Source: Mycobacterium sp. ITM-2016-00318
Lineage (GTDB): Bacteria; Actinomycetota; Actinomycetes; Mycobacteriales; Mycobacteriaceae
NCBI RefSeq assembly: GCF_002968285.2
Contig: NZ_CP134400.1
Span: 3,534,001 to 3,598,000 of the forward strand
Length of the DNA: 64,000 bases
Direction of reading: 5' to 3'
Positions within the stretch are counted from its first letter, which is position 1. Every line of letters begins with the position of its first letter. Shown in pieces: positions 15,346 through 39,149 of this stretch. The notes under the pieces were generated by a model, which saw nothing but the letters and a program-made list of their open reading frames with translations, had not been told where the DNA came from and did no database searches. The position numbers and the translations under genes are program-made.

Positions 15346-15367
15346 GCCGAGGCGCTACGTTCGACGA

Positions 15368-17023
<1,656 letters not shown>

Positions 17024-22532: not shown

Positions 22533-23399
22533 CTACCGCTTGACCGGAAAGTGCGCCGAGCGCCCCTCGTCGCTGCGCAGCCGCTGCTCGAGCTCACGGG
22601 CGACGAGTTCACTGGCGAGTTCGACTGCGCGGCGACTGTCCGCGCCTGCCGACCGGTGCGCCGTATAACAGGCAGTGAACATGTCACCCGCGCCGGTGGT
22701 CTGCACGCCCTCGACCCGCCACGCCGCCGGAACACGGACGACGGTGTCGTCGGTGTAGACGTCGCACCCCTCCGACCCGAAGGTCACCAAGACTTCCGGC
22801 ACCCCCAGCCGCGCCGCCGTCGATTCGTCGAACGGCCCGTCGGCGACGATGACCGCCTCGTCCTCAGCGAGCTTGAGCACACTTATGTGGCGGAGCAGTT
22901 CGGGCGAGAAGTGCCGGTCGACCACCATCGGGCCCACCCGGTCGGCGCGCACGAGGCCCTGACCGTCGTAGACGATGCGATGACCGCGGGAGTGAAGGAG
23001 GGCGAGCGTCTGCGCAGGGAAGTCGGTGCGTAGTAGCGGCGCAAGATGTAGCCATGTCGTGTCGGGGCTAGCGGCCTCGATCGCGTCGGAGTTCCACACC
23101 GGGCCGACGGCGTCGACTGACATTCTGCGGTGGTCGACGTCCACGTAGTCCAACCGGAAGGAGCTCGTGCGGTCGGACGGCAGGATGCGCAGTGTCGGGC
23201 CGAGGCGTGCGGCGAGGTCGTCGAACAGCGCGTGGTCACGTTCCGCGCCCATCGCCACCAGCCGGCCGGGCACATCGACCGCGGCCAGCGCGACGCCTGC
23301 GAATGACGCGCAGCCGCCAGGACTCGGCGGGGCCCCGTCGATGATGTCAATCGCGAGGTTGCCCATGACGGTCACCCCGGCGATGAGATGGCCGTGCAT
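22533..23399 (-). CDS. PfkB-family carbohydrate kinase
   Basis: A 288-residue kinase from the ATG at 23399, with GAAGG 7 nt upstream; GTG six bases earlier is too close to that site. The C-terminal PfkB signature is GVQTTGAGDMFTACYTAHRS, holding the anion hole and catalytic Asp. The N-terminal substrate region is the Gly-rich SPGGCASFAGVALAA. Identity within ribokinase/fructokinase-like enzymes cannot be fixed. It lies 100 bp after the LacI regulator gene on the same strand and may phosphorylate a sugar or polyol from the neighbouring PhyH operon. It is distinct from iolC at 33.5 kb. Confidence 0.88.
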   Translation of the reverse strand: MHGHLIAGVTVMGNLAIDIIDGAPPSPGGCASFAGVALAAVDVPGRLVAMGAERDHALFDDLAARLGPTLRILPSDRTSSFRLDYVDVDHRRMSVDAVGPVWNSDAIEAASPDTTWLHLAPLLRTDFPAQTLALLHSRGHRIVYDGQGLVRADRVGPMVVDRHFSPELLRHISVLKLAEDEAVIVADGPFDESTAARLGVPEVLVTFGSEGCDVYTDDTVVRVPAAWRVEGVQTTGAGDMFTACYTAHRSAGADSRRAVELASELVARELEQRLRSDEGRSAHFPVKR

Positions 23400-23427
23400 T
23401 CTCACACCTTCACGAACTTCTGGTCAG

Positions 23428-23499: not shown

Positions 23500-24504
23500 T
23501 CAGGAGGGCACGTTGAAGGGGGTCACGATCTGGATCGGTGCCGGCCGCGCGGGCTCGGCGGGCAACGCTTTGCGTTCCTGCAGTATCAACCGCATCGCCA
23601 AGCGCGCATCGGCACGCAGGTCGTTGTGCAGGACCACCGAGATCCTGCCGTCGCGCAGCAGGGCCCGGTTGTCGACGTCGAGATCGTGTGCGATGAAGAC
23701 ACGGCAGTCGCGGCCCAGCCGCTCGAACGCGGCGACGGTCGCCGCGTTGCCACCACCGACGGAGTACACCGCCTGCACCGCCGGATTGCGCTGCAGCGCC
23801 TCGAGCACCAGTCGCTCGTTCGTCGCGTCTATGCCATCGCTGCCGCTCACCTCGACGATGTGCCGCCCGCTACCGCGCAGTGCGGCCCGGAAGCCGACCT
23901 CGCGCTCACCTTCGCCACGAAATGCGTTGCGGCTCAGGGTGATCAACACGTCTGACGGCGACGAACCCAGCCACTGCCCCATCAGGTAGGCGGCTGTCAC
24001 GCCCGCGCCGTGGTTGTCGATGCCGACATATGAGCATCTGGCACTTGCCGGCACATCGGTCGCATACGTCACCACCGGGACGCCGCTGCCGACGAGCCGG
24101 TCGATGGCCTCGGCGACCTCGGGTTCGTCCTGCGCCTTGAGGATCACGCCGTGGCTGCCGCGCAGCCGTGCGAGCGCATCGACCATGTGGGCGGTGGAGC
24201 CGGTCTCCCACAGGTGGAACCGCGCCCGCAGCATCGCCGGGGCGAATGCGGGCAGTTCGGCTTCCACGGCGGCCCGGAAGGAGTCCGAGAACCGCTGCGG
24301 TGTCTGCATCACGACGTCGATGAGGTAGCGGCGGCCGTTCAGCCGCAGCTGGGCACGCTGTTTGTCCAGATCGGAGATCGCCTGCATGACCTCGGCGCGG
24401 GTGGTCTCCCGTACGCCGGGCCGCTCGTTGAGCACTCGGTCGACGGTGGCCTCGCTCAGGCCGGACTGCTGGGCGATTTCGCGGACCTTGTAGCGGTGCG
24501 GCAC
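23500..24504 (-). CDS. LacI-family transcriptional regulator
   Basis: A 334-residue regulator from the GTG at 24504, which has GAGGAG with 6-nt spacing; the frame continues upstream without family features. The N-terminal LacI helix-turn-helix is YKVREIAQQSGLSEATVDRV followed by LNERPGVRETTRAEV. A periplasmic-binding-protein-like effector domain follows (CSYVGIDNHGAGVTAAYLMG, VYSVGGGNAATVAAFERLGR). It faces the PhyH/iolG-like operon across a 152-bp gap that contains a short inverted repeat, so it very likely controls that operon and itself in response to the operon's sugar or polyol. Confidence 0.92.
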   Translation of the reverse strand: MPHRYKVREIAQQSGLSEATVDRVLNERPGVRETTRAEVMQAISDLDKQRAQLRLNGRRYLIDVVMQTPQRFSDSFRAAVEAELPAFAPAMLRARFHLWETGSTAHMVDALARLRGSHGVILKAQDEPEVAEAIDRLVGSGVPVVTYATDVPASARCSYVGIDNHGAGVTAAYLMGQWLGSSPSDVLITLSRNAFRGEGEREVGFRAALRGSGRHIVEVSGSDGIDATNERLVLEALQRNPAVQAVYSVGGGNAATVAAFERLGRDCRVFIAHDLDVDNRALLRDGRISVVLHNDLRADARLAMRLILQERKALPAEPARPAPIQIVTPFNVPS

Positions 24505-24522
24505 GGCTACTCCTCGTTTCGC

Positions 24523-24536: not shown

Positions 24537-24656
24537 AGATGGTGGGCTCTGCTCGAACTTTCCCGCCCAAGTGTCGGTTTGGGCGTGGTTGTATGAGGCT
24601 TTTTTGATGGGTTTCTGGTGTTGATTGCGGTGCTGGCGACTATCAGACTAGCTGCC

Positions 24657-25814
24657 ATGGCAACACCGCTGACCACTGCATACCCGCCGTGGATCGACGA
24701 TGCCGCGTGTGACCTCGACGCGTTTAGCGCTCAGGTGGCGCGCACAACCGATCTGGCCGCCTATCCGCACGCCGTCGCCATCCGCGACAACGTCCTCGTC
24801 TATCCGGCCGCCGAACCGGCCGACCGGCGTGCGTTGCAGGCGGAGTTGATCCGGGCGCTGACCGACGGTCCTGGCGTGGTCGTGTTCGAAAAGGCGTTCC
24901 CCGCTGACGTCGTCGACCGCGCCAGTGCCGCGTTCTTCGCCATCATCTCCCAACAGCGCGCGGCGGGCGCCGCGGCAGGCGACCACTTCGGAATGCCCGG
25001 AGCCAACGACCGCATCTGGAACGCCGCGCAGAAACTCGCGCTGCACTCCCCCGACGTGTTCACCGAGTACTACGCCAACGACATGCTCGCCGTGATATCG
25101 CAGGCCTGGCTCGGACCCCGCTACCAGGTCACCTCGCAGGTCAACGTCGTCAATCCCGGGGGCAGGCAACAGGTTCCACACCGCGACTACCACCTCGGCT
25201 TCGTCGCACCCGAGGATCTGGCGGCGTATCCGGCGCATCTGCACCGCACCTCCCCCGTGCTCACCCTGCAGGGCGCGGTCGCCCATTGCGATATGCCGAT
25301 CGAGAGCGGGCCGACGATGCTGCTGCCCTACTCGCAGCAGTTCCTCGGCGGCTACATCGCGTTCAACCGCCAGGAGTTCGTTGAGTTCTTCGCCGAACAC
25401 CATGTGCAGGTGCCCCTCCACAGCGGCGACGCGGTGTTCTTCAACCCTGCCCTGTATCACGGTGCGGGAACCAACTTCTCGAATGACATCCAACGGATGG
25501 CGAACCTGCTGCAGATCTCTTCGCCGTTCGGTCGCGCGATGGAGGCGCTCGACCGGACCGCGATGGTGCACGCCATCTATCCGGCGCTGCTCGAGATGAA
25601 GGCCGCGGGCCGATCGCATCACGATCTGCTCAACGCCATCGTCGCGACCGCGGAAGGGTATGCGTTCCCCACCAATCTGGACGTCGACCAGCCGATCGGC
25701 AGCCTCGCCCCGCCGTCGCAGGTCGACACCGTGCTGGCTGCGCTCGCGAACGACTCCACGCCGGAACAACTCGAGGTCGCGCTGCGCGACCAGAACGATC
25801 GGAGAATCCCATGA
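24657..25814 (+). CDS. phytanoyl-CoA dioxygenase (PhyH) family Fe(II)/2-oxoglutarate oxygenase
   Basis: A 385-residue protein from the ATG at 24657 (MATPLTTAYPPWIDDAACDL). It has the Fe(II)-binding HxD in QQVPHRDYHLGF (about residue 180) and the distal His in FFNPALYHGAGTNFSNDIQR (about 265), the latter with an Arg suited to hold 2-oxoglutarate. This is the double-stranded beta-helix layout of PhyH-type oxygenases, which hydroxylate or oxidatively demethylate small substrates. It opens an operon with two Gfo/Idh dehydrogenases and an IolE-like protein (4-bp overlap with the next gene). A role in converting a modified cyclitol or sugar into a substrate for those enzymes is inferred, not shown. 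Confidence 0.85.
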   Translation: MATPLTTAYPPWIDDAACDLDAFSAQVARTTDLAAYPHAVAIRDNVLVYPAAEPADRRALQAELIRALTDGPGVVVFEKAFPADVVDRASAAFFAIISQQRAAGAAAGDHFGMPGANDRIWNAAQKLALHSPDVFTEYYANDMLAVISQAWLGPRYQVTSQVNVVNPGGRQQVPHRDYHLGFVAPEDLAAYPAHLHRTSPVLTLQGAVAHCDMPIESGPTMLLPYSQQFLGGYIAFNRQEFVEFFAEHHVQVPLHSGDAVFFNPALYHGAGTNFSNDIQRMANLLQISSPFGRAMEALDRTAMVHAIYPALLEMKAAGRSHHDLLNAIVATAEGYAFPTNLDVDQPIGSLAPPSQVDTVLAALANDSTPEQLEVALRDQNDRRIP

Positions 25815-26815
25815 CAACCATCGGCGTGATCGGACTGGGCCGCATCGGCGCCTTCCACACCGACACCCTCAGCGGACTGGACAGCGTCGACAATCTGGTG
25901 ATCACCGACGAGCGGCCCGAACTCGTCGCCGCTGTCGCCGCCAAACACAATGCAAAGCCGGCGGATTCGGTTGACCAGCTGCTGTCGTCGGGTATCGACG
26001 GGGTGGTCGTCGCCGCGGCGACGCCCGCGCACGCCGAGCTGACGCTGGCGGCCGTCGAGCGCGGGATACCGACGTTCTGCGAGAAGCCGATCGCCTCGAC
26101 AGCGGTGGAGGCCGCCAGGGTCGCCGACATCATCTCGCGCTCCGGTGTGCCGGTTCAGGTCGGCTATCAGCGCCGCTTCGACGCCGCGTTCGCCGCGGCC
26201 AAGCGTGCCGTCGACGACGGTTCGCTCGGCCACATTCACACGGTCCGCAGCACGACGATGGACCCCGCCCCGCCGCCGATGGAGTACATCGCAGGCTCGG
26301 GCGGCATCTTCCGCGACTGCGCGGTGCACGATTTCGACATCCTGCGGTGGATCACCGGGCAGCAGGCCGTCGACGTGTATGCCACCGGCAGCGTGCAGGG
26401 CGATCCAATGTTCAGCGAATTCGGTGATGTCGACACCGCCGCGGTGGTGGTGCGTTTCGAATCCGGCACGCTCGGGGTGGTCTCGGCGGCCCGTTACAAC
26501 GGCCACGGGTATGACTGCCGGCTCGAGGTGCACGGCTTCGACGACACCGTGGTGGCCGGTTGGGATAAGGGCGCGCCGGTGCGAAACGTCGACCCGGTCA
26601 ACGACTTCCCCGAAGGCCCGGCACACCACTTCTTCATGGACCGGTTCACCGAGGCGTTCCGTGCGGAACTCGCTTCGTTCGTCGACGTCGCCAAGGGCAA
26701 TGCCGCTCCGGCCTGCACCGTCGAGGACGCGGTTGAGGTGGCGTGGCTCGCCGAAGCGGCGACCGAGTCGTTGAAGCGCGGTGCCCCGGTACGACTCGAC
26801 GATGTGAGGTCGTAG
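25811..26815 (+). CDS. Gfo/Idh/MocA oxidoreductase, inositol 2-dehydrogenase-like
   Basis: A 334-residue NAD(P)-dependent dehydrogenase, MTTIGVIGLGRIGAFHTDTL, with the GxGxxG Rossmann motif. The catalytic Lys lies in TFCEKPIAS (about residue 97) and the Asp/His pair in DCAVHDFDILRWITG (about 175), the arrangement of IolG-type inositol and scyllo-inositol dehydrogenases. It overlaps the PhyH stop by 4 bp and abuts the IolE-like gene. It probably oxidises one hydroxyl of a cyclitol or sugar to a ketone. It is a separate paralogue from the iolG of the main iol operon at 39.2 kb. Confidence 0.88.
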   Translation: MTTIGVIGLGRIGAFHTDTLSGLDSVDNLVITDERPELVAAVAAKHNAKPADSVDQLLSSGIDGVVVAAATPAHAELTLAAVERGIPTFCEKPIASTAVEAARVADIISRSGVPVQVGYQRRFDAAFAAAKRAVDDGSLGHIHTVRSTTMDPAPPPMEYIAGSGGIFRDCAVHDFDILRWITGQQAVDVYATGSVQGDPMFSEFGDVDTAAVVVRFESGTLGVVSAARYNGHGYDCRLEVHGFDDTVVAGWDKGAPVRNVDPVNDFPEGPAHHFFMDRFTEAFRAELASFVDVAKGNAAPACTVEDAVEVAWLAEAATESLKRGAPVRLDDVRS

Positions 26816-27688
26816 ATGAAGATCGCCGGTGCTCCCATTTCCTGGGGCGTGTGCGAGGTCCCCGGCTGGGGCTACCAGCTCGCGCCCGACAAGGTGCTCG
26901 CCGAGATGCGCGATGTCGGAATGTCCGCGACAGAGCTTGGGCCGGAAGGGTTCCTGCCGTCGGATCCCGCTCAGCTGACGGAGTTGCTCGGGTCTTTCGG
27001 CTTGCGCAGCGTCGGCCAGTTCGCCCCCGTCGTGCTCCACGACCCCGATCACGATCCGGTTCCCGACATCGGCGCACCATTGGACGCGTTGGTGGCGACC
27101 GGGGCGGATGTGCTGGTGTTGGCGGCCGCAACCGGCGCCGACGGGTACGACGCCAGACCCACCCTCGATGACCGCCAATGGGCGACGTTGCTGGCCAATC
27201 TGGACCGGCTCGCAGGCGCTGCGGACGACCGCGACGTGCTCGCGGTGCTGCATCCGCACGTCGGCACGATGGTCGAGACCCGAGACGAGGTCGATCGCGT
27301 GCTGACCGGGTCGTCGATTCGACTGTGCCTGGACACCGGTCACCTGTTGATCGGAGGGACCGACCCGCTGCGGCTGGCACGGCAGGTGCCTGAGCGCATC
27401 GCCCACACTCACCTCAAAGATGTCGACACGAAGCTCGCGGCCGACGTGCAGGCAGGAACGCTCACCTACACCGAGGCGGTGCGGCGCGGGATGTACACGC
27501 CGCTGGGAGCCGGCGACGTGGATATCGCGGGCATCGTCACCACCCTGCGCAGCAACGGCTTCGACGGCTGGTTCGTGATGGAGCAGGACACCATCCTCGA
27601 CGCCGAGCCGACCGACGAGGGCCCGCTTCGCGACGTGGCGGCTAGTGTGCAGTTCATGCGGGATGTCTGCCGCGGCGTAGCGGTATGA
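26816..27688 (+). CDS. IolE-like sugar isomerase/inosose dehydratase (TIM barrel)
   Basis: A 290-residue AP-endonuclease-2-like TIM barrel. Its start, MKIAGAPISWGVCEVPGWGY, closely resembles the APxSWG start of 2-keto-myo-inositol dehydratases (compare SAPDSWGVWF in iolE at 38.2 kb). Metal ligands are expected in LCLDTGHLLIGGTDP, RIAHTHLKDVD and FVMEQD. The ATG follows the preceding stop with no gap. It should dehydrate or isomerise the keto product of the dehydrogenase before it. A second IolE-type enzyme points to a substrate differing from plain myo-inosose. Confidence 0.85.
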   Translation: MKIAGAPISWGVCEVPGWGYQLAPDKVLAEMRDVGMSATELGPEGFLPSDPAQLTELLGSFGLRSVGQFAPVVLHDPDHDPVPDIGAPLDALVATGADVLVLAAATGADGYDARPTLDDRQWATLLANLDRLAGAADDRDVLAVLHPHVGTMVETRDEVDRVLTGSSIRLCLDTGHLLIGGTDPLRLARQVPERIAHTHLKDVDTKLAADVQAGTLTYTEAVRRGMYTPLGAGDVDIAGIVTTLRSNGFDGWFVMEQDTILDAEPTDEGPLRDVAASVQFMRDVCRGVAV

Positions 27689-28647
27689 GCTTGCGGATCG
27701 GGGTGCTCGGCGCATCCCGAATCACCGACCTCGCCATCGTCGGTCCAGCGCATCAGTTGGGGCACCGGCTGGTCGCCGTCGCTGCGCGCGACCCTAAACG
27801 CGCCGAGGTGTTCGCCGAAAAGCACGGCGTCGAACGGGTTCTGGGTTCCTACGCCGACGTCATCGCAGACGCTGAGGTCGACGCGATCTACAACCCGTTG
27901 GCGAATTCGCTGCACGCGCCATGGAATTTGGCCGCGGTCGAAGCGGGCAAGCCCGTTCTCACCGAGAAGCCGTTCGCGCGCAACCGGTCCGAGGCTCAGC
28001 GCGTCGCCGAGGCCGCCCGGTCCTCAGGCGTCACGGTCGTGGAGGGCTTTCACTATCTCTATCATCCGGTGACGCGCCGAGCCTTCGAGCTCGCACACGA
28101 CGGCACGATCGGCGACATGCACCACGTCGAGGTGCGGATAGCGATGCCCGAACCCGATGCCTCCGACCCGCGATGGTCGTTCGAGATGGCCGGCGGCGCG
28201 CTGATGGATCTGGGCTGCTACGGCCTGCACGTGATGCGCATGCTCGGCCGCCCGTCGATCATCCGAGCCCACGCGGGAGAACGTACGCCGGGAGTCGACG
28301 AGTGGTGCGATGTGGAGCTCGGCTTCCCCGGCGGCGCAACGGGGCGCAGCGCCAACACGATGACCGCCTCCGACTACTCGTTCACGCTGCGCGTCGTCGG
28401 CACCAAGGGAGACCTGTTGGTGCACGACTTCATCAAGCCGAACAAGGACGACCGGCTGACCATACGGACCCCTTCGGGCACGCGGGTAGAGCACCACGGC
28501 ACAAGGACGTCGTACAGCTACCAGCTGGAGGCGTTCGCCGCCCACGTGCTCCACGGCGCTGCGCTGCCCATCGACGCCGCCGACGCGGTGCAGAACATGG
28601 CTTTTGTGGACGCCGCCTACCGCGCCGCCGGAATGACGCCCCGCTAG
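27685..28647 (+). CDS. Gfo/Idh/MocA family oxidoreductase
   Basis: A 320-residue dehydrogenase, MSLRIGVLGASRITDLAIVG, overlapping the previous stop by 4 bp. The catalytic Lys is in VLTEKPFARNRSEAQRVAEA (about residue 95) and the second motif reads ALMDLGCYGLHVMRMLG (about 180), as in glucose-fructose oxidoreductase/trans-dihydrodiol dehydrogenase relatives rather than strict inositol dehydrogenases. It is the last gene of the four-gene operon and is followed by a strong bidirectional terminator. It may carry out a second oxidation, or the reduction half of an epimerisation. Confidence 0.87.
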   Translation: MSLRIGVLGASRITDLAIVGPAHQLGHRLVAVAARDPKRAEVFAEKHGVERVLGSYADVIADAEVDAIYNPLANSLHAPWNLAAVEAGKPVLTEKPFARNRSEAQRVAEAARSSGVTVVEGFHYLYHPVTRRAFELAHDGTIGDMHHVEVRIAMPEPDASDPRWSFEMAGGALMDLGCYGLHVMRMLGRPSIIRAHAGERTPGVDEWCDVELGFPGGATGRSANTMTASDYSFTLRVVGTKGDLLVHDFIKPNKDDRLTIRTPSGTRVEHHGTRTSYSYQLEAFAAHVLHGAALPIDAADAVQNMAFVDAAYRAAGMTPR

Positions 28648-28722: not shown

Positions 28723-29547
28723 CTAGCCCTTGGCGGCGCGCAGTTCGTGTGACAGCGCCTCGAGCTCGTCGCCGCCAGCCATCTCCTGCGTGAGGTGCTC
28801 GAGGGTGATCTCGTCGTAGGTGCAGTCCAGCTTCTGCTGGCCGCGTTTGAGGATCACGAAGTGGTCGCCGACCATGTGCGCATGGTGCGGGTTGTGCGTG
28901 ATGAAGACGACGCCGAAGCCGGCCTCTTTGGCCGCAGTGATGTACTTGAGCACCACACCCGACTGCTTGACGCCCAGTGCGGCGGTCGGCTCGTCGAGGA
29001 TCAGGACGCGCGCACCGAAGAACACCGCCCGCGCGATCGCGACACACTGGCGTTGACCACCCGACAGCGAGCCGATCGCCACGTCGACGTCCGGCAGTTC
29101 GATCCCCATCTTCGACAGCTCGGAGAGCGTGGTGGCCCGCATGGCGTTGGCGTCCAACGACCACGGGAAGCGGCTGCGGCGGAGCTCCTGACCGAGAAAG
29201 AAGTTGCGCCACACGGGCATCAGTGGCACGACGGCGAGGTTCTGGTACACCGTCGCGATGCCTTTGCCCAACGCATCCTTCGGTGAGGCGAACTTGATCG
29301 AATCGCCGTCGACGACGAGTTCGCCGTCGGTCTGCGGGTGGTAGCCGGCGATGATCTTGATCAGCGTCGACTTGCCCGCTCCGTTGTCACCGAGGATCGC
29401 GGTCACCTCGCCGGCGTGGACACGCAGCGAGATGCCCTTGAGCGCGGTGATATTGCCGTAGGTCTTGCCGATGTTCTTCAGCGCGACCAACGGAGCTTTT
29501 CCGCCGGAAGGAGCTTCTTCCACGTGTCGATCAACCGTTGCGGTCAT
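28723..29547 (-). CDS. sugar ABC transporter ATP-binding protein (single-domain, FrcA type)
   Basis: A 274-residue ATPase with Walker A ILGDNGAGKSTLIKIIAGYH (about residue 55), the ABC signature SLSGGQRQCVAIARA (about 160) and Walker B VLILDEPTAALG. Importers of this class (CUT2) more often use a doubled ATPase of about 500 residues. This single-domain form matches the FrcA fructose/inositol-type subgroup, so two copies should form the dimer. It is the last gene of the binding protein-permease-ATPase operon, 3 bp after the permease stop. Confidence 0.92.
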   Translation of the reverse strand: MTATVDRHVEEAPSGGKAPLVALKNIGKTYGNITALKGISLRVHAGEVTAILGDNGAGKSTLIKIIAGYHPQTDGELVVDGDSIKFASPKDALGKGIATVYQNLAVVPLMPVWRNFFLGQELRRSRFPWSLDANAMRATTLSELSKMGIELPDVDVAIGSLSGGQRQCVAIARAVFFGARVLILDEPTAALGVKQSGVVLKYITAAKEAGFGVVFITHNPHHAHMVGDHFVILKRGQQKLDCTYDEITLEHLTQEMAGGDELEALSHELRAAKG

Positions 29548-29550
29548 GGG

Positions 29551-30606
29551 TCACCTCTTCGCGGCGTAGTTGCGGAATGCGTTGTTGGCGATCACGGCGA
29601 ACAGCAGCATCGCGCCCATGAAGGCCTTGAACCAGTCCGGTTCCCAGCCCGCGTAGACGATGCCCTTCTCCACCATGCCGAAAATGAAGGCACCGATGGC
29701 CGCGCCGATCGCCGTGCCATAGCCGCCCGTCAGCAGGCAGCCACCGATGACTGCGGCAATGATGTAGATGAACTCCTGGCCGACACCCTGACCGGATTGC
29801 ACCGTGTTGAACGAGAACAGCAGATGCATGCCGAGGAACCAGGCTGCGAAGCCGACGGTCATGAACAGCCCGATCTTCACCGCAGTCACGGGAACACCGA
29901 CCGCGCGGGCGCTTTCCGCGTCGCCGCCAACGGCGAAGATCCAGTTGCCGACCTTTGTCTTGAACAACACATAGGTTGCGATGGCGGTGAACAACAGCCA
30001 CCACAACACGGTGATGCGCACTGACACGCCGAAAATCGTCACGCTGGACGCGAACACCGCGCGCGCCGACTCCCAGCCCTGCATGTCGTTCACGCTCGGC
30101 GTGGCGACCTGGCCGGCGATCAGCTTGGTCACCGCGATGTTTGCGCCGGTCAACATCAACAAGGTGCCCAATGTGATCAGGAAGCTGGGAATCTTCGTCT
30201 TCATCACCAGATAGCCGTTGAAGAACCCGATCGCCAACGACAGCAGCAATCCCAAAGCTGCTCCCACCCAAAGATTTAGATGGAAGTTCCACGCCAGCAT
30301 CGAGGCGGCGAGCGAACTGGTGGTCACCGCCACACCGGCGGACAAGTCGAATTCACCGCCGATCATGAGCAGCGCTACCGCGCATGCCATGATCCCGATA
30401 GCCGAACTGCCGTACAACACCGTCGCCAGGGAGTCTGCGGACCGGAACGGCGGCGCGACGACCAGGAAGAAGACGAAGATCACGATCGCGCCGATCGCCG
30501 CACCCATCTCCGGACGAATCAGCAGACGCTGTAAACGGTTTCGTTCCTTGACGCGTTCGTCGCGGACAACCTTGTGACCGGCTACGTTTAGATCAGTTGT
30601 CGTCAT
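29551..30606 (-). CDS. sugar ABC transporter permease (CUT2/FrcC type)
   Basis: A 351-residue membrane protein with about ten hydrophobic helices (for example GAAIGAIVIFVFFLVVAPPF, AIGIMACAVALLMIGGEFDL, FIYIIAAVIGGCLLTGGYGT). The motif GGEFDLSAGVAVTTSSL is the family signature of BPD_transp_2 permeases (RbsC, XylH, FrcC). It forms the channel for uptake of a monosaccharide or cyclitol. It lies 24 bp after the binding-protein gene. The shared operator upstream of the operon suggests that the solute is myo-inositol or a relative. Confidence 0.93.
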   Translation of the reverse strand: MTTTDLNVAGHKVVRDERVKERNRLQRLLIRPEMGAAIGAIVIFVFFLVVAPPFRSADSLATVLYGSSAIGIMACAVALLMIGGEFDLSAGVAVTTSSLAASMLAWNFHLNLWVGAALGLLLSLAIGFFNGYLVMKTKIPSFLITLGTLLMLTGANIAVTKLIAGQVATPSVNDMQGWESARAVFASSVTIFGVSVRITVLWWLLFTAIATYVLFKTKVGNWIFAVGGDAESARAVGVPVTAVKIGLFMTVGFAAWFLGMHLLFSFNTVQSGQGVGQEFIYIIAAVIGGCLLTGGYGTAIGAAIGAFIFGMVEKGIVYAGWEPDWFKAFMGAMLLFAVIANNAFRNYAAKR

Positions 30607-30630: not shown

Positions 30631-31620
30631 TTAACGGGTTCCGGCCTTGGCCAGCTCGGCGACCGAGTCGATGTTCGACTCGTCGATGAACGACGGGCCC
30701 GTCAGGGTGGCCTGTCCGCCGCCGATCAGGTTCTTGTTGTTGATGAACAGCCATAGTGAGTCGATGGCCAGGTACCCCTGCAGGAACGGCTGCTGGTCGA
30801 CCGCCCACTTCACATCGCCGCCCTGGATGGCACCGACAAGCGCCGCGTTGGTGTCGAACGTGACGATCTCCGCCTTGCTATTGGCGTTGGTCTTCGATTG
30901 GACCGCCGCCAAGGCAATCGGTGCACCGAGCGCGACGAGATGATCGACCGACGGATCTTGCTGGAGTTTGGCGGTGATCGTGGACTCTACCGACGGCATG
31001 TCCTTACTGTTGACATTCAAGATCTCGGACTGGCCCTTGAAGCCTTCTTTCACGCCGGCGCAGCGTGATTCGAGCGCGACCTGGCCCTGCTCCTGAATGA
31101 TGCAGACGATCTTCTTGGCGCCATCCTTGGTCAACCGCTCTCCCGCAGCGACGCCTGCGAGCTTCTCGTCCTGGCCGAAGTACTCCTGAACGCCCATCGC
31201 CTTCCAGTCGTCGAATCCCGAGTTGAACGCGACGACAGGAATGTCTTTGTCTATCGCGGCCTTCACCGCGGGAGTCATGGCATCGGGCTTGGCGAGCGTC
31301 ACTGCGATGCCCTTCACGCCGCTGTCAATCGCGGTCTGAACCAGGTTCGCTTGGTTCGGCGCTTCGGGGTCGTTGGAGTACCGCAACTCGATGTTGTCCT
31401 TATCGGCCGCCGCCTGGGCACCCTTGCGAATAAGATCCCAGAACGAGTCGCCGGGCACCTCGTGGGTGATCATCGCGACCGTGACGCGCGGCGTGTTCGC
31501 TTGGCCCGCGCCCATGCCTCCACCGGACTCTTCGGGCTTGCCTCCGGTCGACGAACATGACGCGATGCCGCATACGAGCACGCTTGTCCCGGCGATCGCA
31601 GCGAGCCGATTGAACCTCAT
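30631..31620 (-). CDS. sugar ABC transporter substrate-binding lipoprotein
   Basis: A 329-residue protein from the ATG at 31620, which has GGAGG just upstream; in-frame starts further up would put basic residues before the signal peptide. The lipobox is VLVCGIASC, with Cys at residue 23. The mature part is a periplasmic-binding-protein type 1 fold of the ribose/inositol group (VTVAMITHEVPGDSFWDLIR, NDPEAPNQANLVQTAIDSGV, IPVVAFNSGFDDWKAMG). It is anchored outside the membrane, captures the solute and is first in the importer operon. Its promoter carries one of the two identical 22-bp modules also found before iolC. Confidence 0.93.
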   Translation of the reverse strand: MRFNRLAAIAGTSVLVCGIASCSSTGGKPEESGGGMGAGQANTPRVTVAMITHEVPGDSFWDLIRKGAQAAADKDNIELRYSNDPEAPNQANLVQTAIDSGVKGIAVTLAKPDAMTPAVKAAIDKDIPVVAFNSGFDDWKAMGVQEYFGQDEKLAGVAAGERLTKDGAKKIVCIIQEQGQVALESRCAGVKEGFKGQSEILNVNSKDMPSVESTITAKLQQDPSVDHLVALGAPIALAAVQSKTNANSKAEIVTFDTNAALVGAIQGGDVKWAVDQQPFLQGYLAIDSLWLFINNKNLIGGGQATLTGPSFIDESNIDSVAELAKAGTR

Positions 31621-31698
31621 ATTTCCTCCGCTCTTCGCGCGAGCGCTCATCGCAGTTTCGCGCGCCTTATGAGTGCAACGGAACACGCCTCATCGTTG

Positions 31699-31727: not shown

Positions 31728-31744
31728 TACTTTGTCCTGACATT
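31723..31744 (-). promoter_or_regulatory. IolR-type operator, copy 1
   Basis: These 22 bp are identical, in inverted orientation, to 33466-33487. The core (minus strand TGTCAGGACA, plus strand TGTCCTGACA, 31733-31742) fits the KGWCHTRACA motif that I recall for the GntR regulator IolR of Corynebacterium glutamicum. It sits between the divergent importer and hydroxypyruvate-isomerase-like genes. Confidence 0.65.
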
Positions 31745-31806
31745 AGGACTGCACATCAAATGTTAGGGTGCATCGGTCCTCCCCGACGAGCAATGGATGG
31801 CAAGCG

Positions 31807-32592
31807 ATGACTGACCTGACTCTGGCGGTCTGCTCGGAGATGGTATTCACCGACTTACCGCTCATCGACAGGGTGCGCCGCATCGACGACCTCGGCTTCG
31901 CCGTCGAGATCTGGAGCTGGCACGACAAGGACCTCGACGCGCTGGCTGCCACGGGCGCGCGGTTCTCGTCGATGACCGGTTACCTGCAGGGCGACCTGAT
32001 CGATCCCGCAAGCGCCGAAGAGGTGGTGCGGACGGCGGAGCTCAGCATCAAAGCGGCTGAGAGGCTGGGTGTTCCGCGGCTCAACCTGCACACCGCCGAG
32101 CTCGTCGACGGCAAAGCGGCCCGGCCGCGGCACCGCGCAACCGGCGAGATGTGGCTGACCGCGCAGCGCACGCTCGAGCGGATCGGCGACCTCGGCGCCG
32201 CGGCGGGTGTGACCTTCTGCGTGGAGAACCTGAACACGCTCGTTGACCACCCTGGCGTGCCGCTCGCCCGCGCGAAGGACACGTTTGCGCTCGTCGAGGG
32301 GGTCGGCCATCCGAACGTGCGAATGATGCTCGACCTGTACCACGCGCAGATCGGCGAGGGGAACCTCGTCGAGCTGATCCGGCGCTGCGGCGACGCGATC
32401 GGCGAGGTTCAGGTCGCCGACGTGCCGGGCCGCTGCGAGCCGGGCACCGGCGAGATCCACTACCCCGCTATCGCGAAGGCACTGCGTGACATCGGGTTCA
32501 CCGGCACTGTCGGCCTCGAGGCGTATGCATCTGCAGGCGGTGTCGCCGGCAGCGAAGCCGCCCTCGACGCCTTCCGCCGCGCCTTCGCCTGA
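31807..32592 (+). CDS. hydroxypyruvate isomerase-like TIM-barrel protein
   Basis: A 261-residue protein from the ATG at 31807 (MTDLTLAVCSEMVFTDLPLI). It has the AP-endonuclease-2 fold with the hallmark metal ligands in VTFCVENLN (Glu), RMMLDLYHAQIGEGNL (Asp/His), EVQVADVPGRCEPGTGEIHY and GTVGLEAY. HPNVRMMLDLYH and GRxEPGTGEI are typical of Hyi hydroxypyruvate isomerases and their OtnI relatives. It is divergent from the importer operon, shares its operator, and is convergent with gntR/iolR. It may isomerise an intermediate of polyol breakdown; hydroxypyruvate as substrate is only a family-based guess. Confidence 0.85.
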   Translation: MTDLTLAVCSEMVFTDLPLIDRVRRIDDLGFAVEIWSWHDKDLDALAATGARFSSMTGYLQGDLIDPASAEEVVRTAELSIKAAERLGVPRLNLHTAELVDGKAARPRHRATGEMWLTAQRTLERIGDLGAAAGVTFCVENLNTLVDHPGVPLARAKDTFALVEGVGHPNVRMMLDLYHAQIGEGNLVELIRRCGDAIGEVQVADVPGRCEPGTGEIHYPAIAKALRDIGFTGTVGLEAYASAGGVAGSEAALDAFRRAFA

Positions 32593-32664: not shown

Positions 32665-33396
32665 TCAGCGGTCGACGAGTGTGGTGTCGAAGTAGTAGCG
32701 CGATGCGCGATAGCCGTGCGTGCCGAACTCGACGGCAGTGCCCGAGTCGTCGAACGCCGTTCGCGCCATCGTCAACAATGGCGCGCCGGGCTTCTCGTCG
32801 AGCAGTTTGGCCTCCGCCCGGGTCGCACCGCGGGCACCGATGCGCTGGCGGGCCAGCCGGATGTGCACACCGCGGGCGCGCAGCGACGAATACAGCCCGT
32901 TGCTCTCCAGCTCCTCGGCATCGGGCGCGATCTCGACGGGCAAATGGTTCACCATCACCGCAAGCGGCTCGCCGTTGGCACAGCGCAGCCGGTGAATGGA
33001 CACCACCTCGCGATCGTCCTTCAGGCTCAGCTCACGCGCGACCTCTTCGTCGGGCGGACCGACGTGGTAATCGAGTAGCTGCGTGGTCGGCTCCTGGCCT
33101 GCCCGCGTCAGATCGTCGTACAGGCTCGTTAGCTCGACGCGCCGGTGTACGGGGTTCTGCACCACCTGGGTGCCGACGCCGCGCTTGCGAACCAGCAGTC
33201 CTTTGTCGACGAGTTCCTGGATGGCGCGACGTGTCGTCGGCCGCGACAACGTCAGCCTTTTTGCCAGTGCCAGTTCATTTTCGAACCGATCCCCTGGTGC
33301 CAGGTCGCCGTCGCGGATCGCGGCCTCGATCGCCTGGGCAAGCTGATAGTAGAGGGGGACAGGGCTTGACCTGTCGAGCTCCACGGCCAATGGCAC
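32665..33396 (-). CDS. iolR: GntR-family (UTRA) regulator, IolR-like
   Basis: A 243-residue protein from the GTG at 33396, with GGAG and 5-nt spacing. The frame is open much further upstream, through the promoter and into the antisense of iolC, which is not plausible. The winged helix is PLYYQLAQAIEAAIRDGDLA, FENELALAKRLTLSRPTTRR and KGLLVRKRGVGTQVV. The C-terminal UTRA ligand domain ends GYRASRYYFDTTLVD. Its position divergent from iolC and next to two IolR-like operators matches the iolR-iolC layout of C. glutamicum, so it is most likely the inositol-responsive repressor of the iol and importer operons. Confidence 0.85.
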   Translation of the reverse strand: MPLAVELDRSSPVPLYYQLAQAIEAAIRDGDLAPGDRFENELALAKRLTLSRPTTRRAIQELVDKGLLVRKRGVGTQVVQNPVHRRVELTSLYDDLTRAGQEPTTQLLDYHVGPPDEEVARELSLKDDREVVSIHRLRCANGEPLAVMVNHLPVEIAPDAEELESNGLYSSLRARGVHIRLARQRIGARGATRAEAKLLDEKPGAPLLTMARTAFDDSGTAVEFGTHGYRASRYYFDTTLVDR

Positions 33397-33437
33397 GTTG
33401 TCTCCGATCTCGGGTCCGATCAGATAACGGTAGCTGA

Positions 33438-33443
33438 ATAGTA
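33438..33443 (-). promoter_or_regulatory. possible -10 box of the gntR/iolR promoter
   Basis: TACTAT on the minus strand lies 16 nt after CTGACT, which overlaps the edge of operator copy 2, and 42 bp before the GTG start. This would make the regulator autoregulated. Confidence 0.4.
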
Positions 33444-33465
33444 GCACCGCATGATTGAAAGTCAG

Positions 33466-33487
33466 AATGTCAGGACAAAGTATTGAC
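33466..33487 (+). promoter_or_regulatory. IolR-type operator, copy 2, with -35 box of the iol operon
   Basis: These 22 bp are identical to the inverse of 31723-31744. The core TGTCAGGACA (33468-33477) is followed by TTGACA (33483-33488), a consensus -35. Relative to its own operon the module has the same orientation and spacing as in the importer promoter. A good -10 at 17-18 nt is not obvious. Confidence 0.65.
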
Positions 33488-33549
33488 ATGCCGGAGTGTC
33501 GCAGGGCACAGTCGTACTGACGCCACCACCAACGCCCCGGAGAGCGATC

Positions 33550-34521
33550 TTGACCAGCATGCAGCCCTACGACGTGCTCGCCATCGGGCGCAGCGGCGTC
33601 GACATCTATCCCCTCCAGATCGGCGTCGGCCTCGAGCACGTCGAGTCGTTCGGCAAGTTCCTCGGCGGCAGCGCCGCCAACGTCGCGGTGGCGGCGGCCA
33701 GGCTCGGAAACCGGACGGCGCTGATCTCCGGCGTCGGCGACGACCCGTTCGGCACATTCGTCCGCAACGAGCTCGCGGGTCTCGGCGTCGACAACCGCTT
33801 CGTCGCGACCCACGACGAGTATCCGACGCCGGTGACGTTCTGCGAGATCTTTCCGCCGGACAACTTCCCGCTCTACTTCTACCGCCGCCCCAGCGCACCG
33901 GACCTGCAGATTCGCGCCGACGAGCTCGACCTCGACGCCGTCCGGTCGGCCAAGCTCTACTGGTCGACGGTCACCGGGCTGTCAGAAGAGCCGAGTCGCA
34001 GCGCGCATTTCGCTGCATGGGAGGCCCGCGATCCTGCCGCGCACACAGTCCTCGACCTCGACTACCGGCCCATGTTCTGGGAATCCCGCGAAGCGGCCAC
34101 CGAGCAGGTGCGCAACGCACTGCGACGCGTGACAGTCGCCGTCGGTAACCGCGAGGAGTGTGAGATCGCCGTCGGCGAGAGCAACCCGCAGCGCGCGGCG
34201 GAGGCCCTTCTCGGCCTGGGCGTGCAGTTGGCGATCGTCAAGCAGGGCCCGCGCGGCGTGCTCGGCAAGACCCGGCACACCCATGTCAGCGTCCCACCCA
34301 ACGATGTCGACGTCGTCAACGGCCTCGGCGCCGGAGATGCCTTCGGCGGCAGTCTGTGTCACGGTCTGTTGCACGGCTGGCCGCTGGAGAAGACCCTGCG
34401 CTACGCCAATGCCGCCGGGGCGATCGTCGCGTCGCGCCTCGAGTGCTCGACGGCGATGCCGACGGCGGCAGAGGTCGCCGCGCTCGCCGACCAGACCGCG
34501 GTGGAGGCCGTCAATGTCTGA
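33550..34521 (+). CDS. iolC: 5-dehydro-2-deoxygluconokinase (IolC)
   Basis: A 323-residue PfkB kinase, YDVLAIGRSGVDIYPLQIGV, with the Gly-rich substrate region KFLGGSAANVAVAAARLGNR and the catalytic signature VVNGLGAGDAFGGSLCHGLL (Asp near residue 265). It phosphorylates 2-deoxy-5-keto-gluconate, the fifth step of myo-inositol breakdown. The TTG at 33550 has a well-placed GGAG; an ATG at 33559 is the alternative start. It is the first gene of the seven-gene iol operon and overlaps the next gene by 8 bp. IolC differs from other PfkB enzymes mainly by context, which is strong here. Confidence 0.93.
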   Translation: MTSMQPYDVLAIGRSGVDIYPLQIGVGLEHVESFGKFLGGSAANVAVAAARLGNRTALISGVGDDPFGTFVRNELAGLGVDNRFVATHDEYPTPVTFCEIFPPDNFPLYFYRRPSAPDLQIRADELDLDAVRSAKLYWSTVTGLSEEPSRSAHFAAWEARDPAAHTVLDLDYRPMFWESREAATEQVRNALRRVTVAVGNREECEIAVGESNPQRAAEALLGLGVQLAIVKQGPRGVLGKTRHTHVSVPPNDVDVVNGLGAGDAFGGSLCHGLLHGWPLEKTLRYANAAGAIVASRLECSTAMPTAAEVAALADQTAVEAVNV

Positions 34522-35395
34522 CGCCATGTGCCGCGACTACGCCGAGATCACCGACGTGCGTGCGTCGGACCCGCAGGCCGTCGAGCGCGCATGGCAGACC
34601 CGTGCCATCCGGCCCGCCGTCCGCGGCAACGGCAGGCTGATGATCGTCGCCGCCGACCATCCCGCTCGCGGCGCCCTTGGCGTCGGCGACCGCCCCACCG
34701 CGATGAACAGCCGCACCGACCTGCTCGACCGGCTTCGGGCGGCGCTGGCCAACCCGGGGGTCGACGGTGTCCTCGCGACCTCCGACATCCTCGACGACCT
34801 GCTGCTGCTCGGCGCACTCGAGGACAAGGTCGTCTTCTCCTCGATGAACCGCGGCGGCCTTGCGGGGGCGCAGTTCGAACTGGACGACCGGATGACGGGG
34901 GCCACCGCCTCGGCAACCGCGGCGGCCCGGATGAACGGCGGAAAGATGTTGTGCCGCATCGATCTCGACGATCCCGGCACCGTGTCGACGCTGGCGACGT
35001 GCGCGCGGGCCATCGACGAGCTCGCCTCGCACGGCCTGATCGCGATGGTCGAGCCGTTCATGTCGTCGCGGGTGAACGGCAAGGTGCGCAACGACCTCAG
35101 CCCCGATGCGGTGATCAAGTCCGTGCACATCGGACAGGGCCTCGGCTCCACGTCGGCGTACACCTGGATGAAGCTGCCCGTCGTCGACGAGATGGACCGC
35201 GTCATGGAGTCGACGACGCTGCCGACGCTGCTTCTCGGCGGTGACCCAGCCGATCCGAACGAGGCGTTCGCGAGCTGGGAGAAGGCGCTGGCGCTGCCGT
35301 CGGTGCGCGGGCTGATCGTGGGCCGCACGCTTCTTTATCCGGCGGATGACGATGTGAGTTCCGCTGTCTCGACGGCCGTTTCGATGGTGAGGTGA
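34514..35395 (+). CDS. Cgl0159-type (beta/alpha)8 aldolase, iol operon
   Basis: A 293-residue protein from the ATG at 34514, MSDAMCRDYAEITDVRASDP. It reads as a class I aldolase-like TIM barrel (MIVAADHPARGALGVGD, HGLIAMVEPFMSSRVNGKV, SAYTWMKLPVVDEMDRV, LPTLLLGGDP), where the Lys in TWMKLP is a candidate Schiff-base residue. It is the second gene of the operon, exactly where C. glutamicum has Cgl0159 after iolC. No IolJ-type aldolase is present, so this protein probably cleaves 2-deoxy-5-keto-gluconate 6-phosphate to dihydroxyacetone phosphate and malonate semialdehyde. That role is inferred from position and fold. Confidence 0.87.
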   Translation: MSDAMCRDYAEITDVRASDPQAVERAWQTRAIRPAVRGNGRLMIVAADHPARGALGVGDRPTAMNSRTDLLDRLRAALANPGVDGVLATSDILDDLLLLGALEDKVVFSSMNRGGLAGAQFELDDRMTGATASATAAARMNGGKMLCRIDLDDPGTVSTLATCARAIDELASHGLIAMVEPFMSSRVNGKVRNDLSPDAVIKSVHIGQGLGSTSAYTWMKLPVVDEMDRVMESTTLPTLLLGGDPADPNEAFASWEKALALPSVRGLIVGRTLLYPADDDVSSAVSTAVSMVR

Positions 35396-36252
35396 GCGTG
35401 CGCAGCGAGTACTACATTCCGGCCAACAGCGCGACGCTGCCCTACACCGTCCACGTCACTCCCGAGTCCGCGGGCTGGTCAGAGGCAAGCCTGTGGGTGG
35501 TCGAACTACAGCCGGATCAGGCACTGGAGCTGGCCACTACAGACATCGAGGTGATGATCGTGCCGCTGGCGGGCGGTGGAGCCGTGAAGTGCGACGGCGA
35601 GACGTTCGAGCTGTCGCCGCGCGCATCGGTTTTCGACGGTCCCGCCGACATGGTCTACATCGGAACCGGCCGGAGCTACACGCTGCGCGGCGAAGGCAGG
35701 ATCGCGATCTGCGGGGCTTGCGCCACGAAGCAACTGCCCAACCGAAGGGTGGCCGCCGCCGATGTGTCGGTCGAGTTGCGCGGTACCGGCAACTGCAGCA
35801 GGCAGGTGCACAACTTCGGCACCGCGGGCGTCTTCGAGGCCGACTCGCTGATCGCCTGCGAGGTGATCACGCCGGGCGGCAACTGGTCGAGCTATCCCTC
35901 CCACAAGCACGACGAGGACACGCCCGTCGAGTCGGCGCTCGAGGAGATCTACTACTTCGAGATCGCCTCCGGCCCAGATGATTCCCGCGGCTTCGGCTAT
36001 CACCGCGTGTACGGCACACCGAGCAGGCCTATCGAGGTCCTCGAAGAGGTGCGCAGCGGTGACGTCGTGCTTGTCCCCCACGGGTATCACGGGCCGTCGG
36101 TCGCAGCGCCCGGCTACCACATGTACTACCTCAACGTGATGGCAGGCCCGGGTGAGGAACGGGCCTGGAAGATCGTCGACGACCCCGAGCACGCTTGGTT
36201 GCGCGACACCTGGGAGGACCAGGCCGTCGACCCCCGGCTGCCCCTGCATTGA
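35392..36252 (+). CDS. iolB: 5-deoxy-glucuronate isomerase (IolB)
   Basis: A 286-residue bicupin protein; the GTG at 35392 overlaps the previous stop (GTGA). Family features include EYYIPANSATLPYTVHVTPE, the second-cupin metal site in WSSYPSHKHDEDTPVESALE with EEIYYFEI, and HGYHGPSVAAPGYHMYYLNV. It isomerises 5-deoxy-D-glucuronate to 2-deoxy-5-keto-D-gluconate, just before the IolC step. Length is within the normal range. It lies between the aldolase and iolD within the operon. Confidence 0.95.
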   Translation: MSVRSEYYIPANSATLPYTVHVTPESAGWSEASLWVVELQPDQALELATTDIEVMIVPLAGGGAVKCDGETFELSPRASVFDGPADMVYIGTGRSYTLRGEGRIAICGACATKQLPNRRVAAADVSVELRGTGNCSRQVHNFGTAGVFEADSLIACEVITPGGNWSSYPSHKHDEDTPVESALEEIYYFEIASGPDDSRGFGYHRVYGTPSRPIEVLEEVRSGDVVLVPHGYHGPSVAAPGYHMYYLNVMAGPGEERAWKIVDDPEHAWLRDTWEDQAVDPRLPLH

Positions 36253-36267
36253 CAAGGAGAGTGACGC

Positions 36268-38220: not shown

Positions 38221-38227
38221 TCGACTG

Positions 38228-39133
38228 ATGAGCACGATTCTCGTTGGCTCCGCCCCGGATTCATGGGGCGTGTGGTTTCCCAACGATCCGGGCCAGACGC
38301 CGTACACCCGTTTCCTCGACGAGGTTGCCGCCTCCGGCTACAAGTGGATCGAGTTGGGACCGTTCGGTTATCTGCCCACCGACCCCAAGCAGCTGTCGGA
38401 GGAGCTGGCATCGCGCGACCTGAAACTGTCGGCGGGCACCGTGTTCGAGCATCTGCATCAGGACGACTCATGGGATGCCGTGTGGAAGCAGATCGAGGAC
38501 GTCGCCAAATTGACGGCGGCCGTCGGTGGCAAGCACGTCGTCGTCATCCCCGAGATGTGGCGCGACCCGTCGACCGGCGCCATGCTGGAGGACCGCAATC
38601 TGACGCCCGAGCAGTGGCAGAAGAAGACCAACGGCATGAATCAACTCGGCAAGGCGATGTTCGAAAATTACGGTTTACGTGCGCAATACCACCCGCACGC
38701 CGACAGCCATGTCGACACCGAGGAGAACGTATACCGCTTCCTCGACGGCACCGACGGCGAGTTCGTGAACCTGTGCTTGGACACCGGCCACATCAGCTAT
38801 TGCGGCGGCGACAACATCGCGATCATCGAGCGCGCACCCGAGCGAATCGGCTATCTGCACCTCAAGCAGGTCGATCCCGAAGTGCAGGCGAAGGTGATCG
38901 CCGAGGATCTGCCGTTCGGCGAGGCCGTGAAGCTCGGCGCGATGACCGAGCCACCTCGCGGCATCCCCGAGATGCCGCCGCTTCTGGCCGCGGTGGAGAG
39001 GCTCGGCATCGACGTCTTCGCGATCGTCGAACAGGACATGTATCCCTGTGAGGTCGACGCACCCCTGCCTATCGCCAAGCGAACGCGCAACTACCTCGGT
39101 TCGTGCGGCGTCCCGTCCGTGAAATTCCTTTAG
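38228..39133 (+). CDS. iolE: myo-inosose-2 dehydratase (IolE)
   Basis: A 301-residue TIM-barrel enzyme from the ATG at 38228, MSTILVGSAPDSWGVWFPND, with GYKWIELGPFGYLPTDPKQL following. Metal-binding positions are in LCLDTGHISYCGG (Asp/His), IGYLHLKQVD and FAIVEQDMYP. It removes water from 2-keto-myo-inositol (scyllo-inosose) to give the dione that IolD opens. It is the true iolE of the window; the protein at 26816-27688 is a divergent relative. Confidence 0.96.
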   Translation: MSTILVGSAPDSWGVWFPNDPGQTPYTRFLDEVAASGYKWIELGPFGYLPTDPKQLSEELASRDLKLSAGTVFEHLHQDDSWDAVWKQIEDVAKLTAAVGGKHVVVIPEMWRDPSTGAMLEDRNLTPEQWQKKTNGMNQLGKAMFENYGLRAQYHPHADSHVDTEENVYRFLDGTDGEFVNLCLDTGHISYCGGDNIAIIERAPERIGYLHLKQVDPEVQAKVIAEDLPFGEAVKLGAMTEPPRGIPEMPPLLAAVERLGIDVFAIVEQDMYPCEVDAPLPIAKRTRNYLGSCGVPSVKFL

Positions 39134-39149
39134 GAGCCGGAGGATAGCC

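Follow-up and report, generated by a model that had tools for sequence, protein, structure and literature searches.

What does an oxygenase of the PhyH family do at the head of an operon of inositol-type genes? The question is raised by a stretch of 64,000 nucleotides from Mycobacterium sp. ITM-2016-00318 (contig NZ_CP134400.1, positions 3,534,001 to 3,598,000; called the window here), whose genome is a single contig of 5.46 Mb. The operon consists of four plus-strand genes whose neighbouring open reading frames (ORFs) overlap by four bases or abut: phyH (24657..25814), encoding an Fe(II)/2-oxoglutarate (Fe/2OG) oxygenase of 385 amino acids; gfoA (25811..26815), encoding an IolG-like inositol dehydrogenase; iolE2 (26816..27688), encoding an IolE-like inosose dehydratase paralog; and gfoB (27685..28647), encoding a Gfo/Idh/MocA dehydrogenase outside the IolG branch. 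An earlier annotation made from the letters alone (the sequence-only reading) had proposed this four-gene set, and the ORFs as well as the Pfam domains (PF05721 for PhyH, Gfo/Idh/MocA domains for GfoA and GfoB, AP_endonuc_2 for IolE2) agree with it. We find the locus to be genuine and conserved, an accessory module for the catabolism of inositol, and we lean towards PhyH being the entry enzyme of this LacI-controlled module of inositol breakdown.

PhyH and the inositol genes

The link to inositol breakdown is seen most clearly in a survey of 201 genomes of the family. A full-length PhyH ortholog is present in 36 of them, spanning nine genera (matches below 70 bits, among them a fragment in the iolD-positive genome G134, were not counted), and iolD scores above its curated cut-off in 59. 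All 36 PhyH-positive genomes carry iolD as against 23 of the 165 PhyH-negative ones (Fisher 1.8e-24, relatedness not corrected for), and within the genus of the window iolD is found in 4/4 PhyH-positive and 0/11 PhyH-negative genomes. The distance from phyH to iolD is at most 20 kb in 31 of the 36. Whatever the substrate of PhyH, this confinement of phyH to family members with iolD is a clear pointer to its function. That PhyH is tied to inositol breakdown, as the sequence-only reading had it, is borne out by this occurrence in iolD-positive genomes only and by the inositol genes that recur next to it.

These neighbours were counted in three partly overlapping sets of loci (L034 and L084, for example, come from contigs of equal length), using tblastn identity thresholds (for LacI 40% identity or more) save where ORF clusters are named. 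The contig set comprises the best 80 of 580 confirmed stretches from a scan of genome contigs and favours near relatives; here a divergent adjacent LacI gene accompanies phyH in 78 loci, GfoA in 73, GfoB in 50, an importer gene in 50 and any of iolB/C/D/E/G in 37, and at least one inositol-type gene is present in 79/80. All 25 mycobacterial loci of this set keep the order LacI<PhyH>GfoA>IolE2>GfoB>. The actinobacterial set (40 regions from 42 genomes with a strong PhyH match, leaving out the window's own genome and G070) has a divergent adjacent LacI in 30 regions, an importer gene in 29 and any iol gene in 18. The plasmid set holds 28 regions drawn from 47 matching plasmid records, and includes a single actinobacterial region (Tsukamurella); a divergent adjacent LacI is found in 20 and a short-chain dehydrogenase/reductase (SDR) in 14. 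Annotated inositol genes adjoin PhyH in Tsukamurella, Paracoccus, Thioclava, Marinovum, Shinella and Pantoea sp. At-9b. The gene-neighbourhood search across Actinobacteria that the sequence-only reading had suggested shows LacI, the inositol-type importer, GfoA/GfoB and iol genes recurring beside PhyH in other actinobacterial loci; a PhyH gene unlinked from the others was not the outcome.

Streptomyces loci are mostly arranged as LacI<PhyH>SDR>GfoA>(GfoB>), often with iolG and iolE close by; at the threshold used an IolE2 match occurs in one Streptomyces-type locus (L122) and in none of the others. In rhizobia LacI<PhyH>SDR> by itself is common. Beside the cluster in L151 (6946-8148) and in similar Streptomyces loci lies a Gfo/Idh protein that resembles levoglucosan dehydrogenase (304 bits against a cut-off of 650), and clustering places it in 43 loci.

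It could be argued that PhyH has nothing to do with its neighbours and is a passenger in a spot that accumulates carbohydrate genes. PhyH-like proteins do form a large family, and at the thresholds used 6/40 actinobacterial loci and 26/28 plasmid regions contain no recognised inositol gene. With an inositol-type gene in nearly every locus of the contig set, however, and with an upstream site that is kept across phyla (see below), we regard the passenger explanation as very improbable.

The protein itself scores 99 bits with PF05721 (gathering cut-off 22) and is the sole match to this model in the genome at E 0.001. The residues H175-x-D177...H268 and R280 are unchanged across 20 orthologs; from what is known of the family we take H175, D177 and H268 to be the Fe ligands and R280 to be the 2-oxoglutarate ligand. 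Five AlphaFold2 models gave a mean predicted local distance difference test score (pLDDT) of 69-86, the best being 86, and the predicted fold matches Fe/2OG oxygenases including PrhA, OkaE, AsqJ, TlxIJ and KanJ. A sequence search of the PDB with PhyH gave no match at E 0.001. Among the best 8000 candidates scored, the closest species-named PhyH proteins are those of Mycolicibacterium moriokaense (83%), M. stellerae (82%) and M. agri (79%), which suggests that the genome is that of a Mycolicibacterium.

The next two proteins of the operon had been described as belonging to a second, divergent pathway, a description that the curated models do not support. On TIGR04380 (IolG, equivalog cut-off 355) GfoA reaches 322.3 bits and the IolG of the nearby iol operon 211; on TIGR04379 (IolE, equivalog cut-off 290) IolE2 reaches 165.8 bits and the iol-operon IolE 143.5. 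All four copies fall under the curated myo-inositol cut-offs, but since the copies of the oxygenase operon score higher on these models than those of the iol operon, they are not the divergent pair. The iol-operon IolG scores better on a bifunctional chiro-type model (305 bits).

The top PDB match of GfoA is 3ezy, followed by inositol dehydrogenases, and its EKP and D-x3-H motifs align with those of the iol-operon IolG. The EKP lysine and D-x3-H are catalytic motifs of these dehydrogenases, as is in part described in PMC9603128. IolE2 begins with MKIAGAPISWG and has the APISWG start attributed to it earlier; it matches the IolE structure 9zmu with E 5e-33 and forms a separate clade (FastTree support 0.96). 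Its stretches HPHVGTMVET (HxH), LDTGHL and THLKDV align with the solved IolE proteins 9zmu and 3cny and presumably provide the metal ligands. The best PDB matches of GfoB are 4had, a sugar 3-ketoreductase, dihydrodiol dehydrogenase and glucose-fructose oxidoreductase, and it scores 102 bits on TIGR04380.

A candidate route and its rivals

The oxygenase operon probably lets bacteria use chemically modified inositols, and we infer the substrate and the order of reactions as follows. With Fe(II), O2 and 2-oxoglutarate, PhyH would act on a modified cyclitol not directly accessible to the iol pathway and oxidise it to a free inositol or an inosose. GfoA would dehydrogenate the ring to the inosose, IolE2 would dehydrate it and GfoB might alter the redox state or the stereochemistry, while the enzymes of the neighbouring iolD, iolB and iolC genes would carry the breakdown onward.

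Cyclitols that are methylated or otherwise modified are common plant compounds. Our first candidate, put forward tentatively, is that PhyH oxidatively removes the O-methyl group from a plant O-methyl-inositol such as one of the pinitol or ononitol kind, yielding inositol and formaldehyde. With the same reserve it is conceivable that a LacI-controlled PhyH common to soil Actinobacteria, rhizobia and marine Rhodobacterales O-demethylates plant O-methyl-inositols and in this way feeds the iol pathway. The sequence-only reading was right in placing the locus with inositol breakdown, and its idea of an O-demethylation is plausible. In our ranking of substrates O-demethylation is followed by an unspecified or different sugar, and then by deamination and deoxycyclitol hydroxylation, which share the lowest place. 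A gene pair that would burn formaldehyde via folate, folD-purU, lies beside LacI-PhyH-SDR in a plasmid of the rhizobium Peteryoungia desertarenae (L167, 8161-12138) and is the one positional hint at this chemistry. On the other strand of this locus, after LacI-PhyH-SDR, there are a Gfo/Idh gene, folD (which reads in two frames), purU and a sugar ABC importer.

Several observations weigh against PhyH as the O-demethylating entry enzyme of one coupled module. We considered one-carbon folate genes as a general partner of PhyH and rejected this, as they were found in just 1/148 loci (147 of which hold PhyH; flanks of at most 10 kb), and the purU gene of the window's genome lies away from the locus. 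The fold matches PrhA, OkaE, AsqJ, TlxIJ and KanJ do not separate the candidate substrates. Iol genes were detected in just 2/28 plasmid regions, at thresholds set for the actinobacterial copies, and several plasmid regions carry LacI-PhyH-SDR alone. The synteny among mycobacteria may reflect vertical inheritance, because the cluster is flanked by the same 2-oxoacid:ferredoxin oxidoreductase genes in these loci (ORF clusters of 26 and 28 loci, window included). Finally, PhyH and IolE2 co-occur weakly: of the 59 iolD-positive genomes 26 have both, 10 have PhyH only, 11 have IolE2 only and 12 have neither (Fisher p = 0.097).

This last result requires a closer look. IolE2 (E 1e-60 or better) is present in 37/201 genomes of the family, every one of them iolD-positive. 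Eight of the ten genomes with PhyH only belong to a single genus, and where both genes are present they lie within 20 kb of each other in 21/26 genomes; in the other five no contig carries the two within 20 kb. To some extent PhyH and the GfoA-IolE2-GfoB cassette occur apart from each other, and PhyH is the constant part while the partner dehydrogenase varies. This argues against a single fixed four-step route and for PhyH as the entry step. Of the single route from PhyH through the G-, E- and Gfo-type enzymes proposed earlier, the fixed gene order stands for the mycobacteria, but the weak co-occurrence with IolE2 and the SDR that follows PhyH in other groups speak against it as a general scheme.

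The same data could be explained by two modules sharing one neighbourhood, GfoA-IolE2-GfoB serving another inositol isomer and LacI-PhyH-(SDR) acting on a different sugar or glycoside that reaches the iol pathway indirectly. The 10 genomes with PhyH only and the 11 with IolE2 only would fit this, as would the loci of Rhizobium, Sinorhizobium, Ciceribacter and Pantoea sp. SOD02, where LacI and an SDR are the sole companions of PhyH. It would also suit four genomes of one genus (L043, L058, L061, L062) in which LacI lies between PhyH and GfoA, not upstream of PhyH. Coupling is favoured, however, by the confinement of PhyH to iolD-positive genomes within the family and by the gene overlaps in the mycobacterial operon, so that we consider two independent modules rather unlikely and less probable than O-demethylation.

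Two further reactions of PhyH were considered, and both appear unlikely to us. KanJ is known for the oxidative deamination of an aminoglycoside, and PhyH could in a KanJ-like manner deaminate an amino-cyclitol such as scyllo-inosamine, giving an inosose for the iol pathway and ammonia. Against this, the three substrate-binding proteins (SBPs) that were scored are all far under the rhizopine cut-off, and terpenoid and alkaloid oxygenases match the PhyH fold at least as well as KanJ does. According to PMC2597717, homology to MocB suggests myo-inositol transport, though simple homology does not settle the specificity. The other reaction would be a hydroxylation that gives a deoxy-cyclitol (quercitol or viburnitol type) the hydroxyl group it lacks and turns it into an inositol. 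C-H hydroxylation is the commonest reaction in this enzyme family; it needs no genes for one-carbon disposal and fits their absence from 147/148 loci in the fetched flanks, but we give a deoxy substrate no more weight than deamination.

The divergent LacI gene and the site upstream of phyH

The genes opposite the oxygenase operon, for a LacI regulator and a PfkB kinase, were correctly placed by the sequence-only reading, both being on the minus strand by ORF and Pfam. The LacI-type regulator has a Peripla_BP_4 sensor domain and its gene (23500..24510, 5' end uncertain) is divergent from phyH. The PfkB-family carbohydrate kinase gene (22533..23405; PF00294, 62.5 bits) adjoins LacI in part of the mycobacterial loci and is present in 16/80 loci of the contig set; no NCBIfam model reaches its cut-off on this protein. 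Beside PfkB, at 19203-22243 on the minus strand, lie the genes for a two-subunit 2-oxoacid:ferredoxin oxidoreductase (alpha subunit 660 bits, above the cut-off; beta subunit 253, just below it). An FAD-dependent monooxygenase is encoded at 15287-16531, the nearest model being the urate hydroxylase HpxO, with a score below the cut-off.

For the region between lacI and phyH a palindromic LacI operator was tried first, but the best shared element proved to be a direct repeat. In the window the putative operator is the 11-bp direct repeat TGAKGGNTTTTTGATGGNTTT at 24593..24614 (plus strand), upstream of phyH. The 22-base consensus TTGAKGGNTTTTTGATGGNTTT is matched at 18 or more positions upstream of phyH in 103/110 regions as against 0/1100 dinucleotide shuffles. 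As the consensus was drawn from these 110 regions, the 19 Pseudomonadota plasmid loci fetched later are a fairer test, although some of them are close kin of loci behind the consensus: at least 16 positions were matched in 15 and at least 18 in 11, whereas of 950 shuffles 20 and 0 reached these values. In none of the four Pseudomonadota loci scoring below 16 (L171, L175, L183, L185) does a divergent LacI gene directly precede PhyH. Bacteria as far apart as Actinobacteria and Proteobacteria thus carry the direct repeat in front of phyH. The 17-base core of the site has one exact occurrence in the genome and two more at two mismatches; a control with the reversed pattern gave one match. We infer that LacI binds the direct-repeat site.

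The same upstream stretch holds a TTGTCATGACAA-type palindrome scoring above 8 bits in 45/54 mostly-Streptomyces regions. This palindrome resembles the putative IolR motif of C. glutamicum; a literature search for the motif string gave no paper.

If the proposed function is true, the lacI-phyH pair together with its upstream site would mark users of modified cyclitols in soil, on roots and in the sea across several bacterial classes, and LacI with its site would be a cyclitol sensor. The O-methyl-inositols, abundant plant osmolytes, would get a genetically defined bacterial route by way of a 2-oxoglutarate oxygenase, and a large oxygenase family still named after phytanoyl-CoA in the databases would gain a testable class of substrates.

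The neighbouring iol operon and comparison with known systems

Downstream of gfoB three minus-strand genes encode an ABC importer: the ATPase (28723..29547, PF00005), the permease (29551..30606, PF02653, 184 bits) and a sugar/cyclitol SBP (30631..31686) that is the probable subunit of an inositol importer. The best PDB match of the SBP is 4ru1 (367 bits; Foldseek E 3.5e-38, 56% identity, mean pLDDT of the model 78), whose ligand is probably myo-inositol. Next follows, on the plus strand, a hydroxypyruvate-isomerase-like TIM-barrel gene (31768..32592; TIGR03234 125 bits with a cut-off of 353, PF01261); this protein, encoded between the importer genes and the iol operon, may act as an inosose isomerase. 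A GntR/UTRA-type regulator gene (32665..33489, minus strand, 5' end uncertain; PF00392 51 bits, PF07702 120 bits) is divergent from iolC, and its protein cluster spans 30 loci, window included. The motif TGTCCTGACA, a match to the putative IolR-type motif, is found between the SBP and TIM-barrel genes (31733..31742, plus strand) and again at the GntR/iolC boundary (33468..33477, minus strand). Such matches in the window are not above chance, with 2 found, 1.3 expected and 37/100 shuffles reaching 2.

The iol operon itself occupies 33559..41047 on the plus strand. It begins about 5 kb past GfoB with the importer genes between, and not 10 kb away as had been noted. The genes iolC (33559 to 34521), iolB (35392-36252) and iolD (36268-38220) pass their NCBIfam cut-offs, while iolE (38228-39133) and iolG (39150-40175) are below theirs. 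Between iolC and iolB lies a Cgl0159-like gene (about 34520-35395; PF22649, 419 bits); in Tsukamurella a gene annotated as deoxyribose-phosphate aldolase adjoins iolC. The operon ends at 41047 with a TIM-barrel gene that we name IolH-like from its position.

Term searches of the literature tying PhyH or phytanoyl-CoA dioxygenase to inositol found no paper, most subscription papers being outside their scope, and no bacterial oxygenase acting on methyl-inositols came up in the literature searched; PMC12462448 and PMC5020614 likewise offered nothing of use. Three papers on inositol catabolism, PMC9603128, PMC2597717 and PMC9430895 (a survey of 24,812 species), do not contain the word 'dioxygenase' in their main text. 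The kanamycin B dioxygenase KanJ shares the PhyH-type fold and has a polar, cyclitol-bearing substrate, comparable to what is proposed for PhyH; in the fold match it shows 16-18% identity to the PhyH of the window.

The levoglucosan pathway is made up of Gfo/Idh and TIM-barrel proteins, and the layout of Gfo/Idh genes plus a xylose-isomerase-like TIM barrel is shared by the window. Membership in that pathway was rejected, GfoA and GfoB scoring 64.7 and 62.5 bits against a levoglucosan dehydrogenase cut-off of 650. Unlike the proteins of that pathway (PMC7676230), GfoA reaches 322 bits on the IolG model as against 65 on levoglucosan dehydrogenase, and the best match of IolE2 is IolE.

Among the bacterial iol systems, PMC9603128 describes the accessory inositol dehydrogenases IolG/OxiB/OxiD/OxiE of Corynebacterium glutamicum together with the iol pathway. 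Like such systems, the locus brings together in one region with iolC-B-D-E-G enzymes resembling IolG and IolE, several paralogs of the Gfo/Idh type and an importer of the inositol type; unlike that of C. glutamicum, it also contains an Fe/2OG oxygenase gene accompanied by a LacI gene of its own.

Rhizopine catabolism in Sinorhizobium meliloti L5-30 relies on mocABRC/mocDEF (PMC10107442). We rejected membership in this system, since the SBP of the window scores 179.5 bits on the rhizopine model NF052284, far below the cut-off of 420. Among the window genes scanned, which were a part of its ORFs, neither MocR nor mocDEF was found. The title of a 1998 work by Galbraith reportedly states that rhizopine catabolism depends on inositol catabolism. 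With the proposed module this system has in common that the substrate is an inositol carrying a modification, that a Gfo/Idh enzyme and related SBPs take part, and that inositol catabolism is required; but where the rhizopine system has MocR and mocDEF, the locus in the window has LacI and PhyH.

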